64,000 bases of DNA from Knoellia locipacati (GTDB taxonomy: Bacteria > Actinomycetota > Actinomycetes > Actinomycetales > Dermatophilaceae), in the NCBI RefSeq assembly GCF_007992835.1, contig NZ_BKBA01000011.1, forward strand, positions 186,001 through 250,000, given 5' to 3'. Below are positions 19,620 to 26,197 of this stretch, piece after piece. Both the position numbers and the translations under genes were made by a program. The notes under the pieces were generated by a model. The model saw only the letters and a program-made list of their open reading frames with translations. It did not search any database and was not told the origin of the DNA. Numbering within the stretch: the stretch's first letter is position 1; each line of letters begins with the position of its first letter.

Positions 19620-21067
19620 CTACAGCGGGATGTTGCCGTGGTCCCCGCGTCGCTGCGGCGCCTCGGCGATGGCGGTGGCCAGAGCCGAGCGGGTGGCGGT
19701 GGGCTCGACGATCTCGTCGACCACGCCGATCTCGACGGCGCGGGCCAGACCGCCCGACATGAGGTCGTGCTCGTCGGCGAGCTGCTGCTCGACGGCCGCG
19801 CGCTCGGCGTCGTCGACCTCGGCGAGGCGGCGACGGTGCAGGATCCGGATGGCCGCGACCGAGCCCATCACCGCGACGTGCGCCGTCGGCCAGGCGAAGA
19901 CCTTGGTGGCGCCGAGCGAGCGCGAGTTCATCGCGATGTAGGCGCCGCCGTAGGTCTTGCGTGTCACGAGCGTCACGCGGGGCACGGTGGCCTCGGCGAA
20001 CGCGTGCAGCAGCTTGGCGCCGCGGCGCACGACGCCGTCCCACTCCTGGCCCACGCCGGGCAGGTAGCCCGGGACGTCGACGAGGACGATGAGCGGCACG
20101 CCGAACGCGTCGCACATGCGCACGAACCGGGCGGCCTTCTCGGCGCTGGGGGAGTCGAGGCAGCCGCCGAGGCGCATCGGGTTGTTGGCGATGACGCCGA
20201 CGGTGCGACCACCGAAGCGACCGAGCTGGGTGACGATGTTGGGGGCCCACCGGGGGTGCAGCTCGACCGAGTCGGCGTCCTTGTCGAGGACGTTGTCGAC
20301 GACGGGGTGCACGTCGTAGGCGCGCTTGGCCGACTCGGGGAAGGTCTCCTCGAGGTCGAGGTCCTCGATGCCGGAGACGTCGAGCGTGCCCTGGTCGGCG
20401 AGCAGCGAGCACAGCTGACGGCCGCGCTCGTAGGCCTGCTCGGTCGACTCGGTGACGACGTGGACGACACCGCTGCGACGGCCGTGCGGCTCGGGGCCAC
20501 CGAGCCGGAGCGCGTCGACCGCCTCACCGGTGACCGAGCGGACGACGTCGGGTCCGGTGACGAAGATGCGACCGTCGGGCGCGAGGATGACGATGTCGGT
20601 GAGGGCCGGGCCGTAGGCCGCGCCACCGGCGGCGGCGCCGATGACGACCGAGATCTGCGGGATCTTGCCCGACGCGCGGGTCATGATCGCGAAGACCTCA
20701 CCGACGGCGTGCAGGCTCACGACGCCCTCGGGCAGGCGTGCGCCCCCCGAGTGCCAGATGCCGACGACCGGTATGCCGTCCGCCAGCGCCCGCTCGTAGG
20801 CCGCGAGGACGACCTTGCAGCCGGCGACGCCCATGGCGCCACCCATGATCGTGGCGTCGGAGCAGAAGGCGGCCACGGGCGTGCCCTGGCAGGTGCCGAC
20901 GGCGGCGAGCATGCCGGAGTCGTCCTCGGGCGTGATGAGCTCGAGCGAGCCCTCGTCGAAGAACTCGGCCAGCCGCAGCCGCGGGTTGCGCGGGTCGGTG
21001 GCGCGGTCGGGCTTGGGCTTGGTGGCGGCGGACGCGGTGGCGGACGCCTCGTTCGGCTGGTGTGCCA

Positions 21068-21068
<1 letters not shown>
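19620..21068 (-). CDS. accD6: acyl-CoA carboxylase beta (carboxyltransferase) subunit
   Basis: A 482-residue carboxyltransferase of the AccD6/PccB type. Both crotonase-like halves are present: VVGIWHSGGARLPEGV and SVVIGAAAGGAAYGPAL in the first, and VDVPGYLPGVGQEWDGVVRRGAK plus TRKTYGGAYIAMNS (each split) in the second, forming the oxyanion holes. With a biotinylated alpha subunit encoded elsewhere it makes malonyl-CoA for the fatty-acid genes upstream. Last gene of the operon; its ATG overlaps the fabF stop by one base. The Ile in DGIPVV is the rare ATA codon imposed by an octamer copy at 20771. Confidence 0.93.
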
Positions 21069-22312
<1,244 letters not shown>

Positions 22313-22378: not shown

Positions 22379-22627
22379 TCAGCTCTGGTTGGACTGGATG
22401 AACGAGACGGCGTCGCCGACGGTGCGGAGGTTCTTGACCTCGTCGTCGGGGATGCGCACGCCGAACTTCTCCTCGGCGTTGACGACGATCGTCATCATCG
22501 ACAGCGAGTCGATGTCGAGGTCGTCGGTGAACGCCTTGTCGCTCTGGACGGTCTCGGGGTCGAGGCCGGTCTCTTCGTTGACGATCTCTGCGAGACCCGC
22601 GAGGATCTCCTGCTCGCTCTGAGCCAT
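22379..22627 (-). CDS. acpP: acyl carrier protein
   Basis: An 82-residue acyl carrier protein. Serine 41 in DDLDIDSLSMM is the 4'-phosphopantetheine site. The protein is acidic and helical, with the normal ACP length. ATG 22627 is preceded by AAGGAG at good spacing; the longer frame upstream is not coding. It carries the growing acyl chain between FabD, FabH and FabF. Confidence 0.96.
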   Translation of the reverse strand: MAQSEQEILAGLAEIVNEETGLDPETVQSDKAFTDDLDIDSLSMMTIVVNAEEKFGVRIPDDEVKNLRTVGDAVSFIQSNQS

Positions 22628-22727: not shown

Positions 22728-23729
22728 CTAGGGCAGGGTGATGACCTGCGCGGCATACGACAGGCCGGCACCGAAGCCGATCTGGAGGGCGAGGCCGCCG
22801 CGCGGGGCAGCGCCCTCGCGCAGCATGCGCTCGGTCGCGAGCGGCACCGAGGCGGCCGAGGTGTTGGCGGAGTCGACGATGTCGCGCGCGACGGCGACGT
22901 GGTCGGGCATCTTGAGCTGCTTGCACATGGCGTCGATGATGCGGACGTTGGCCTGGTGCGGGATGAAGGCGTCGAGCTGGTCGACGGTCACCCCGGCGAC
23001 CTCGAGGGCGCGCTGGGCGACGGGTGCCATGCTCCAGACGGCCCAGCGGAAGACCCGCTGGCCCTGCATGCCGATCGTGGGCCAGTCGAGCTTCTGCTCG
23101 TGGACGTCGATCCAGCTCTCGTTCTGGGCGATGACGTCCCACTTGTCGCCCTCGGACCCCCACACGGTCGGGCCGATGCCCGCGGTGTCGGAAGCGGTGA
23201 CGATCGCGGCGCCCGCGCCGTCACCGAAGATGAAGGCGGTGCCGCGGTCGGTCCGGCTCGTGAAGTCCGACAGGCGCTCGACCCCGACGACCGCGACGTT
23301 GCGGGCGCTGCCGCCACGCACCATGTCGCTGGCGAGCGAGATGCCGTGGCAGTAGCCGGCGCACGCGGCCGAGATGTCGAAGGCGGCGGGCTTGCCCATG
23401 CCCATCCGGTCCGCGAGGGCCGGGGCGGCGGCGGGCGTCTGGTAGGGGTGGGTCACCGTGGCGAGGATGACCGCGTCGACCTCGCCGGCCTCGATGCCGG
23501 CCATCGCCAGGGCGTCCCGGGTCGCGAACTCGGACATGTCGATGACGCTCTCGCCGTCACCGGCGAAGTGCCGGGTCTTGATGCCGGAGCGCTCTTGGAT
23601 CCACTCGTCGGAGGAGTCGATCGCCTCGACGAGCTCGGAGTTGGGGACGACACGGCGCGGGCGGTAGGCGCCGATGCCGGAGATGCGCGCGTGGGCGGCG
23701 CCGCTCGGCGGGGTGATGAGTCCGGTCAT
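22728..23729 (-). CDS. fabH: beta-ketoacyl-ACP synthase III
   Basis: A 333-residue KAS III that starts chains by condensing an acyl-CoA with malonyl-ACP. Cysteine 123 in DISAACAGYCHG is the nucleophile; FIPHQANVRI and DSANTSAASVP supply the histidine and asparagine. FGDGAGAAIV is also conserved. ATG 23729 (MTGLITPPSG) lies 5 bases after the fabD stop, so the genes are coupled. Confidence 0.95.
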   Translation of the reverse strand: MTGLITPPSGAAHARISGIGAYRPRRVVPNSELVEAIDSSDEWIQERSGIKTRHFAGDGESVIDMSEFATRDALAMAGIEAGEVDAVILATVTHPYQTPAAAPALADRMGMGKPAAFDISAACAGYCHGISLASDMVRGGSARNVAVVGVERLSDFTSRTDRGTAFIFGDGAGAAIVTASDTAGIGPTVWGSEGDKWDVIAQNESWIDVHEQKLDWPTIGMQGQRVFRWAVWSMAPVAQRALEVAGVTVDQLDAFIPHQANVRIIDAMCKQLKMPDHVAVARDIVDSANTSAASVPLATERMLREGAAPRGGLALQIGFGAGLSYAAQVITLP

Positions 23730-23734
23730 CCGAC

Positions 23735-24913
23735 TCAGCCTTCCTGGGGGTGCAGACGGAGGACGGGCTGGCCGGGGGAGACCGGGTCGCCGTCCTCGAC
23801 GAGCCACTCGACGACCCGCCCGCCGTGTGGCGCGACGACCTCGTAGGTGTCGCGCAGGGTGCCGACCGTGGCCACGACGCTGCCGGCCTCGACCGCGGTG
23901 CCGACCTCGCTGTGGGTGAACGAGACCATGCCCTTGGCGGGGCTGATGACGAGGCGCCACGTCGGGTCCTGGGCGGCCCCGGTGGACTTGCCGTGCTCCT
24001 TGACCATCCGGTGGGCCTGCTCGAGGTCGTCGGGGGACTTGAGCGCAAGGATCTCGACGTCCTTGAGGACGCGCTTGGCGAGTCCGGACAGCGTCCCGGC
24101 CGGCGGGACCTCGATGATCCCCGTGACGCCGAGCTCCTTGAAGGTCTGCATGGTGAGGTCCCAGCGGACCGGGTTGCTCACCTGGCTCACGAGGCGGCCG
24201 AGCACCTCGCGACCGCTGTGCACCACGGCACCGTCGCGGTTGGACACGAGGGGCACGCGCGCGTCGTGCGTCGACATCGCCTTGGCGTAGCCGGACAGGA
24301 CGTCGACCGCGGGTGCCATGTGCTCGGTGTGGAACGCTCCCGCGACCTTGAGCGGGATGACGCGCGCCTTGGCCGGCGGCTCGGCGGTGAGGGCCGCGAG
24401 CTGCTCCAGGGTGCCGGCGGCGACGACCTGGCCGGCGCCGTTGATGTTGGCGGGGGTGAGGCCGTGGCGGGTCAGCGTCGCGGTGACGTCGTCGGGGTCG
24501 CCGCCCATGACGGCGCTCATCCCGGTCGGCTGGACGGCACTGGCCTGCGCCATGGCCCGGCCGCGCTCGCGGACGAAGACCATGGCCTGCTCGGCGGAGA
24601 TCACGCCACCGGCAGCGGCGGCGGTGATCTCACCGACGGAGTGACCGGCGCCGGCGCCGACGAGGCGGAAGCCGTCGGCCGGGTGCTCGAACAGCGCGAG
24701 CATCGAGACGAGGCCGGAGGCGACGATGAGGGGCTGCGCGACGGCGGTGTCCTTGATCGTCTCCTCGTCGGACTCGGTCCCGTGCTTGACGAGGTCCATG
24801 CCCGCGACGGCGGAGAGCCAGCCGAGACGTTCGCGCACGCCGGGGATGGCGAGCCAGGGGGTGAGGAAGCCGGGGGTCTGGGAGCCCTGTCCAGGGCAGA
24901 CGATCACGAGCAC
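23735..24913 (-). CDS. fabD: malonyl-CoA:ACP transacylase with a C-terminal lipoyl-like domain
   Basis: A 392-residue protein. Residues 1 to about 300 are a complete FabD: CPGQGSQTPGFL, nucleophile serine 92 in GAGHSVGE, active-site histidine 195 in AGAFHTEHM, and GIIEVPPAGTLSGLAKR. Residues about 315-392 are extra: WRLVISPAKGMVSF, then GTAVEAGSVVATVGTLRDTYEVVAPHGG and VEDGDPVSPGQPVLRLHP (two halves of a biotinyl/lipoyl hammerhead). At the position of the modified lysine this domain has Arg 354 (GTLRDTYEV), so it is probably not modified. GTG 24913 matches related FabD starts; GTG 24907 has better spacing to AAGGGG. FabD transfers malonyl from CoA to ACP. Confidence 0.9.
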   Translation of the reverse strand: MLVIVCPGQGSQTPGFLTPWLAIPGVRERLGWLSAVAGMDLVKHGTESDEETIKDTAVAQPLIVASGLVSMLALFEHPADGFRLVGAGAGHSVGEITAAAAGGVISAEQAMVFVRERGRAMAQASAVQPTGMSAVMGGDPDDVTATLTRHGLTPANINGAGQVVAAGTLEQLAALTAEPPAKARVIPLKVAGAFHTEHMAPAVDVLSGYAKAMSTHDARVPLVSNRDGAVVHSGREVLGRLVSQVSNPVRWDLTMQTFKELGVTGIIEVPPAGTLSGLAKRVLKDVEILALKSPDDLEQAHRMVKEHGKSTGAAQDPTWRLVISPAKGMVSFTHSEVGTAVEAGSVVATVGTLRDTYEVVAPHGGRVVEWLVEDGDPVSPGQPVLRLHPQEG

Positions 24914-24981: not shown

Positions 24982-24996
24982 TGTAGGGTTCCTACA
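24982..24996. promoter_or_regulatory. inverted repeat upstream of fabD, candidate FasR operator
   Basis: TGTAGG-gtt-CCTACA, a perfect 6-bp inverted repeat, sits 69 bases before the fabD start and overlaps the last codons of the regulator gene. A PucR-type activator of this cluster is known to bind upstream of fabD in Streptomyces and Mycobacterium; that this repeat is the site is my inference. Confidence 0.45.
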
Positions 24997-26197
24997 ACTC
25001 GCGGCGGGCTGGTCGCGCGGTCCGCTGGGAGGGCCCGGGGGCTACCCGTCCGTAGGCCAGGGCCAGCCTCACGGTCTGCGCGTCGTGCGGGTCGGTGAGG
25101 TCGTAGCCGATGGTGTCGGCGATCTTGCCCAGGCGGTAGCGCACCGTGTTGGTGTGGACGAAGAGCTCACGGGCCGTGCCCTCGAGCCCGAGCCCGCCGT
25201 CGAGGTAGGCCGCCGCGGTCTCGAGCAGGTTGCCGCCGCCGCTGGCAGACAGGGGCGCATAGACGCGCGACACGAGCGAGGCCCGCGCGGGCAGGTCGCC
25301 GAGCAGCGCGCGCTCGGCGAGGAGGTCGTCGCTGCTCACCGGTCGCGGGGCCTTGGGCCAGGCGTGGGCGGCCGTGTGGCCCGACAGGGCGGCACGCGCG
25401 CTGCGCCCTGCGGCATACAGGTGCGGGACGACGGGACCGACGACGATCGGGCCGTCCCCGAAATGGTCGCCGAGGTGCGACGCGGTGACGAGCGGGTCCG
25501 AGACCTGCCCCACGATGCAGACGACGCGGCGACCGTGGATCGCGACGAGGACCTCGACGCCGAACCGCTTCGCGGAGCGGTGGAGCTGGTCCACCACCTG
25601 TGCTGCGCCCGTGCTCGGGGTCGACCCGACGATGACGCACACGTCGCTCGTCGTGCCCCAGCCGAGCGCGGAGGCGCGCGACTGCATCGAGTCGTCGGCC
25701 TCGCCACGGATCACGGCGTCGACGACGAGGGCCTCGAGACGGGCGTCCCACGCGCCTCGCGCCTCGGCGGCGTGCGCGTAGACCTCGGCGGCGGAGAACG
25801 CGATCTCGCGGCTGTAGAGGAGCACGGCCTCACGGACCTTGACCTCGTCGCCGCGCGCGGCCAGTCCCATCGACTCGCGCTCGACGACGTCGACGACGGT
25901 CCTCACGAGGTCGAGCGTCTGGCCGAGGCTGATCGAGCGGGTCAGCTCACGCGGCGCGGTCCCGAACACGTCGGCCGTCACGTGCGCCTGGTCCTGGCTG
26001 CCGGTGAACCACTCGATGAACGAGCGGATGCCTGCCTGGGCGACGAGCCCCACCCACGAGCGCTCCTTCGGCGGCAGGGCGCGGTACCACCCGTGGGAGC
26101 CCTCCATCTGCTGCACCGCCGCGGCGCCGAGCTCGCCGGCAGCGCGCTCGACGCGGCGTCGCGTGGCCGCGGACGGGCGGCTTCTCGAGGTGGGCAC
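24992..26197 (-). CDS. fasR: PucR-family transcriptional activator of fatty acid synthesis (FasR-like)
   Basis: A 401-residue regulator. The C-terminal PucR helix-turn-helix is clear: LLETAAAYLDGGLGLEGTA, then LFVHTNTVRYRLGKIADTIG, then DPHDAQTVRLALAYGR. The N-terminal 250 residues hold the sensory region of the family. Its position immediately before fabD matches FasR of Streptomyces and Mycobacterium, which activates the fabD-fabH-acpP-fabF genes in response to acyl-CoA. GTG 26197 overlaps a GGAGG region; I see no other good start. A GTATGCCG octamer lies 16 bases upstream at 26213. Confidence 0.9.
   Translation of the reverse strand: MPTSRSRPSAATRRRVERAAGELGAAAVQQMEGSHGWYRALPPKERSWVGLVAQAGIRSFIEWFTGSQDQAHVTADVFGTAPRELTRSISLGQTLDLVRTVVDVVERESMGLAARGDEVKVREAVLLYSREIAFSAAEVYAHAAEARGAWDARLEALVVDAVIRGEADDSMQSRASALGWGTTSDVCVIVGSTPSTGAAQVVDQLHRSAKRFGVEVLVAIHGRRVVCIVGQVSDPLVTASHLGDHFGDGPIVVGPVVPHLYAAGRSARAALSGHTAAHAWPKAPRPVSSDDLLAERALLGDLPARASLVSRVYAPLSASGGGNLLETAAAYLDGGLGLEGTARELFVHTNTVRYRLGKIADTIGYDLTDPHDAQTVRLALAYGRVAPGPSQRTARPARREL

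Follow-up and report, generated by a model that had tools for sequence, protein, structure and literature searches.

A predicted pseudo-biotinyl domain at the C-terminus of FabD and its co-occurrence with an AccD6-type carboxyltransferase gene in Actinomycetes

We report that the malonyl-CoA:ACP transacylase FabD encoded in a 64,000-nucleotide stretch of Knoellia locipacati DNA (the window; contig NZ_BKBA01000011.1, positions 186,001 to 250,000) carries a C-terminal tail with the predicted fold of a biotin carboxyl carrier protein (BCCP) and with an arginine in place of the modified lysine. The domain itself may be implicit in annotation, since its Pfam match would appear in domain databases. 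New is its association with the gene for an AccD6-type carboxyltransferase, accD: tail and gene tend to be gained and lost jointly, which suggests that the two enzymes work together. In our judgement the chances are evenly balanced that the tail is a pseudo-biotinyl domain that has exchanged its carrier role for one in protein-protein interaction, linked to the carboxyltransferase encoded in its own operon.

The fab operon and the FabD core

The fabD gene occupies positions 23735-24913 on the minus strand, with a GTG start at 24913 and a stop codon ending at 23735, and its product is 392 amino acids long. On the same strand follow the genes for FabH (22728..23729, probable start at MTGLITPP) and the acyl carrier protein AcpP (22379..22627, probable start at MAQSEQ), both assigned from the open reading frame and the conserved place in the operon, for FabF (21068..22312), which scores above the cut-off of the NCBIfam fabF model, and for AccD, a carboxyltransferase of the AccD6 type (19620..21068), the gene that co-occurs with the FabD tail. 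The structures closest to this AccD in the PDB are the AccD6 entries 4l6w and 4fb8 (652 bits), followed by a PCC beta subunit at 402 bits. The accD start codon and the fabF stop codon share one base (window positions 21066-21070), which suggests that translation of the carboxylase subunit is coupled to that of the fab operon. Upstream of fabD, also on the minus strand, an open reading frame in a conserved place (24992..26197) encodes a regulator; an NCBIfam scan gave no match for it, and we take it to be of the PucR/FasR type.

The catalytic core of FabD comprises residues 1-314 (23972..24913, minus strand), matches the Pfam family Acyl_transf_1 above cut-off and has solved transacylases as its nearest relatives in the PDB. 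The presumed catalytic residues S92, R117, H195 and Q244 are present in 160, 160, 161 and 162, respectively, of 163 aligned FabDs, the exceptions being gaps and one Arg at position 195. Judged from its sequence, i.e. the catalytic Ser and His together with the family match, the window protein is classified as a FabD. Its scores against the NCBIfam model TIGR00128 (172.5 bits, curated cut-off 260.9) and the malonate decarboxylase MdcH model (171.2 bits, cut-off 297.9) are both below cut-off, and hence neither model would name the protein.

The C-terminal tail, its predicted fold and its spread

A preliminary description of this DNA had proposed that residues about 315-392 of FabD (23738..23971, minus strand) form a hammerhead-like domain related to biotin or lipoyl carriers, and the profile and structure analyses confirm this. 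The domain proper starts near residue 317 (P-T-W-R). The Biotin_lipoyl family PF00364 matches whole FabD with 29.9 bits (cut-off 22.1; best stretch residues 333-387) and residues 312-392 alone with 33.2 bits, and it is matched by all 61 tails of alignment A3 (E<=0.01). When the tail alone was modelled with AlphaFold2 on 61 aligned rows, the structure prediction that had been proposed as a check, an all-beta domain with the biotinyl fold was obtained (pLDDT 89.9, pTM 0.77), and the top five PDB matches of this model in Foldseek were BCCPs, with TM scores of 0.74-0.77 by query and 0.83-0.88 by target. The full-length FabD model reached a pLDDT of 81.4 and was built on only 14 sequences. By fold, then, the tail would be a biotinyl/lipoyl domain, given the profile match and the modelled barrel-sandwich (hammerhead) structure. 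Chance resemblance to a biotinyl domain is ruled out, as Pfam, the PDB profile search and the fold concur.

In the PDB search with a profile of 14 tails the first match was the RND efflux adaptor 6vej (2.7e-9), which belongs to the same fold class and matched in several short stretches, and the second was 1dcz, the biotinyl subunit of 1.3S transcarboxylase (1e-8), over the whole domain. The tail motif L-R-D aligns on M-K-M of 1dcz, so that Arg354 (codon at 23852..23854, minus strand), followed by Asp355, occupies the position of the modified lysine, just as the preliminary description had stated. Across 163 aligned tails, drawn from 80 pattern-scan loci, 82 further loci (the two sets overlap in species) and the window, position 354 is Arg in 149 (80 in the pattern-scan set and 68 in the second set, plus the window) and Lys in none; two tails have Lys353 beside Arg354. 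As a control, the seven other PF00364 matches in the genome (six above and one below cut-off) all have Lys in the motif, which for three carriers with the motif MKM was judged by eye outside the alignment. Having no lysine at the predicted hairpin tip, the tail appears not to qualify as a carrier. Carrier function at the usual site is ruled out by the absence of Lys at 354 and its presence in the other carriers of the genome. Strongly kept in the tail are the Arg-Asp tip, W319, E369, W370 and a His-Gly-Gly turn, and the mean pairwise identity is 0.56 for the tail vs 0.65 for the core (2556 pairs of operons with accD).

The distribution of the tail is widespread but patchy. Within the class of the source genome 118 of 393 genomes, in 56 of 131 genera, match a broader tail profile (E<=1e-11), which rules out a peculiarity of one genome, and in all 40 of these 118 that were fetched the tail is in one frame with FabD. 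Within the order a FabD match was obtained in 169 of 198 genomes and, among the matches listed, best first, 15 extend to the tail end. The tail is present in 38 of the 42 genomes of family f23 with a FabD match; in the other 19 of the 61 genomes of this family, mostly from the genera g77 and g395, the search gave no FabD at E<=1e-20, and these perhaps use a type I synthase. In the order of genome G667 the tail is in one piece in 19 of 20 cases, and in G723 it is split over two frames around an N run. A pattern scan found 364 relatives, 80 of which were kept, including loci from Knoellia, Janibacter, Kribbella, Jiangella, Actinopolymorpha, Pseudokineococcus and actinobacterial MAGs; the tail is in one frame with the FabD motif in 77 of these 80, and the other three have a FabD match over or before the tail. 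In Knoellia flava TL1 the tail is identical over 78 residues, and FabD is 96 % identical overall. In a phylum-wide search with the narrow profile A2, 183 of 396 genomes matched; six were taken as tails by score and the remainder, also by score, as ordinary biotinyl/lipoyl domains, with seven loci inspected. According to the preliminary description, absence of the extension from close relatives would refute its reading. Such absence is seen only in part: the tail is widespread in the class, and the eight tail-less FabDs fetched from the same family (five genera) also lack an operon accD.

Co-occurrence of the tail with accD and decay of tails

In 156 fab operons the tail and accD are both present in 73 and both absent in 71, with the tail only in six and accD only in six. 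On a tree built on FabH and FabF, i.e. a tree of operon genes and not of species, which holds neither trait, there are at least 14 changes of tail state. Over 14 independent pairs the change in accD goes with that of the tail in 10.8 on average and against it in 0.3, and there is no difference in accD in 3.0 (median p 0.00098; p between 0.00098 and 0.0215); we selected the rows across families and not at random. An earlier set of 120 rows gave five pairs, 4.9 of which had the same direction (p 0.06), and with a tree of the FabD core the direction was the same in 4.0 of five pairs (p 0.125). The set was enlarged afterwards, and the 40 added loci were picked on FabD length and family, at a stage when it had not yet been seen whether they had accD. 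The 156 rows derive from 163 loci after removal of L259, L278, L332, L336 and L337 (the contig ends before accD), L329 (tail partly deleted) and L039 (the K. flava locus, a near relative of the window), and the operon of the window itself is outside the 156. Some rows were scored as accD-minus on a short sequence downstream of fabF (L317, 452 bases; L314, 910; L327, 1095; L169, 1412), and L275 was scored as tailed though an N run interrupts the frame.

The individual searches give the same picture. AccD follows fabF in 73 of the 80 pattern-scan loci, and the other seven end earlier on the contig. For the order of the source genome, 7 of the 15 tailed genomes and 53 of the 154 others with a FabD match were fetched with flanks: AccD is present in 7/7 of the tailed loci and absent from the fetched stretch in 52/53 of the tail-less ones. 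In family f23 the four tail-less FabDs are without accD, and tailed relatives, one of them in the same genus (g425), have it. When 36 chosen genomes were searched as a whole, 16 of 17 tail-less genomes had no AccD above 49 % identity and 15 of 19 tailed genomes had one at 58-100 % identity, the copy in G385 lying outside the fab operon; accD is therefore not merely relocated in tail-less genomes. Moreover, fabH, acpP and fabF separate the tail from accD and are all present in loci without tail and accD, hence a single deletion cannot explain the joint loss. Many operons lacking both are nested within tailed clades on the FabH and FabF tree, which makes replacement of the whole operon unlikely there. 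As a general cause of the joint loss, whole-operon replacement is ruled out by this tree.

Tails without accD were also compared with the others for their rate of change, by regressing tail identity on core identity over the 2556 pairs with accD and ranking 78 tails of known accD status by mean residual. The lowest residuals belong to L210, L250, L268, L209 and L267, so that five of the six accD-less tails are the fastest evolving of all, and these five are without Arg354; they represent only three lineages. The sixth, L233, ranks 49 of 78, and a smaller set gave the same five fastest tails. Arg354 is kept in 66 of 72 tails with accD vs 1 of 6 without, and Arg at either 353 or 354 in 71 of 72 and 4 of 6, respectively. 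Among the six tails that have accD and lack Arg354, five have Arg353 instead and L349 has neither; loss of Arg354 with accD present occurs mostly in family f105 (L270, L276 and L277). By FabH and FabF, L267 (G726) groups with the tailed relative L240, and its FabD core lies among tail-less FabDs, so its fabD may be recombinant; its tail is degenerate.

There are exceptions to the co-occurrence in both directions. The tail-only rows are L209, L210 and L250, all of one genus, L233, L267 and L268; an intact-looking tail with accD absent is seen in G591. The accD-only rows (L159, L323, L326, L328, L330 and L331) correspond to four changes on the tree, and accD without the tail occurs in f118 (three rows), f105 (two rows) and G069. 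Family f21, apparently mycobacteria-like, has the tail in 0 of 8 genomes, yet seven of them have an AccD6-type gene (61-67 % identity) at a distance of 1.7-3.0 kb from fabD; this family is outside the tree and, if included, would contribute one or more pairs with accD not following the tail. Taken together, f21 and the four other lineages with accD and without the tail indicate that the dependence of the tail on accD seems to be one-way. Family f20, apparently Streptomyces-like, has neither tail nor accD in 5/5. In L329 (G657, f105) FabD has about 359 residues and lacks an internal part of the tail, Arg hairpin included, and accD is kept; this locus is possibly a snapshot of tail loss.

Possible roles and comparison with known systems

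If the tail serves as an adaptor, its docking site would be on the carboxyltransferase or on the AccA-AccD holoenzyme, in the seat of the true BCCP domain or close by, the Arg-Asp tip would stand in for the biotinyl-lysine, and malonyl-CoA would pass from the carboxylase to FabD and then to ACP. According to an excerpt of PMC6491548, BC and BCCP lie on the alpha subunit of actinobacterial acyl-CoA carboxylases and CT lies on the beta subunit; a FabD domain shaped like a BCCP would thus have an obvious docking place. AccD residues 188, 404, 408 and 427 are fixed to at least 90 % in tailed genomes and differ in the f21 AccD6 and in PCC-type paralogues, and from the alignment they are candidate positions of a docking surface. 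It is in our view possible, with chances somewhat below even, that in approximately 30 % of the sampled genomes of the class a pseudo-biotinyl domain tethers FabD to a carboxylase of the AccD6 type, with the Arg tip in the seat of the biotinyl-lysine and a channel from malonyl-CoA to malonyl-ACP. The preliminary description had suggested that the tail docks FabD to the carboxylase or to ACP so that malonyl-CoA is channelled. Service to the carboxylase of the cluster gains support from the correlated gain and loss with the fab-operon accD on the tree, from the lack of such an accD genome-wide in 16 of the 17 tail-less genomes and from fast tails without Arg354 in three of the four lineages that keep the tail without accD. 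Physical contact, the surface that would bind and the channelling are inferred; docking to ACP may occur, but would not alone explain the accD link.

The accD link bears on two other roles. Should the tail serve FabD itself, through oligomerisation or binding of ACP or CoA, the link would reflect a shared ancestral organisation of fatty acid synthesis; this would fit the persistence of the tail without accD in G591 and of accD without the tail in several lineages. However, the nested operons lacking both, for which whole-operon replacement is unlikely, argue against it, and it does not predict that the fastest tails are those of five of the six accD-less rows; we regard it as not very likely. 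The tail could also regulate the carboxylase as a BCCP mimic, either in competition with the true BCCP or by binding to the biotin carboxylase part, and so tune the supply of malonyl-CoA to the amount of FabD. Such a role draws on the same co-occurrence and decay evidence as docking, and, according to an excerpt of PMC11926652, plant BADCs have been proposed to act as inhibitors, but the observed correlation is with accD and the fusion to FabD would be needless, and we consider it unlikely.

Two further explanations are less likely still. A functionless fossil of a former FabD-BCCP fusion would account for the absent carrier lysine and for the 14 or more state changes on the tree, yet W319 is conserved in 142 of 146 aligned tails, Arg354 in 135, His363 in 132, Gly365 in 145, E369 in 146, W370 in 143 and D376 in 145, and the fastest tails are the accD-less ones, which makes a fossil very improbable. 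That a prosthetic group is attached to another residue of the tail is hardly credible: one candidate, Lys327, is present in 125 of these 146 tails, but it stands before a conserved Gly in the domain's first half, away from the carrier turn, and is replaced by Ala, Gly, Ser, Arg or Val in the other 21.

Fatty acid synthesis draws on the malonyl-CoA that acetyl-CoA carboxylase produces, and if the adaptor role holds true a widespread built-in tether would make channelling directly testable and could matter for malonyl-CoA flux in industrial actinomycetes. To our knowledge no bacterial carboxylase has an established physical connection to FabD. Among open-licence PMC papers, judged by titles and abstract openings, we found none that describes such a connection or a FabD with a biotinyl-like domain, and none that deals with the lost lysine, with how widespread the tail is or with its coupling to accD. 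The abstract of PMC2765072 names other FASII enzymes, and not a carboxylase, as contacts of the mycobacterial FabD.

As regards solved relatives, the window FabD shares its catalytic core with 1nm2 and 2qc3, which we take to be the Streptomyces and Mycobacterium transacylases; these are 317 and 303 amino acids long and match only its residues 1-308 and 1-300, and the length of the tail-less 1nm2 agrees with the earlier statement that FabD of Streptomyces ends near residue 316. The closest solved relatives of the operon AccD, 4fb8 and 4l6w, are presumably mycobacterial AccD6, and a relative lies near fabD in seven of the eight f21 genomes, although FabD there is without the tail. The barrel-sandwich domains of CphZ, EutE and BesA have the same fold as the tail according to Foldseek, but belong to proteins unrelated to FabD, with no carboxylase link seen in our comparison; we know of no carrier role for these domains. 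The biotinyl domains of acyl-CoA carboxylases and of the 1.3S subunit (1dcz, 2evb and 1bdo) resemble the tail in fold and align with it over the domain, whereas the tail has Arg for Lys and an L-R-D tip for M-K-M.

The nearest parallel is with the plant BADCs, which in an excerpt of PMC11926652 are described as BCCP-like proteins without the biotinylation motif that form part of a malonyl-CoA-making enzyme, acetyl-CoA carboxylase, and help to assemble it. They are separate noncatalytic subunits of the plastid enzyme, while the window tail is fused to the transacylase. Likened by description, the tail may be regarded as analogous to a BADC, both being BCCP-like and both having lost the motif, and the co-occurrence with accD lends support to a BADC-like action on the carboxylase. 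If the adaptor role is correct, the tail would be a further case in which a biotin-carrier fold has been reused as a carboxylase adaptor.
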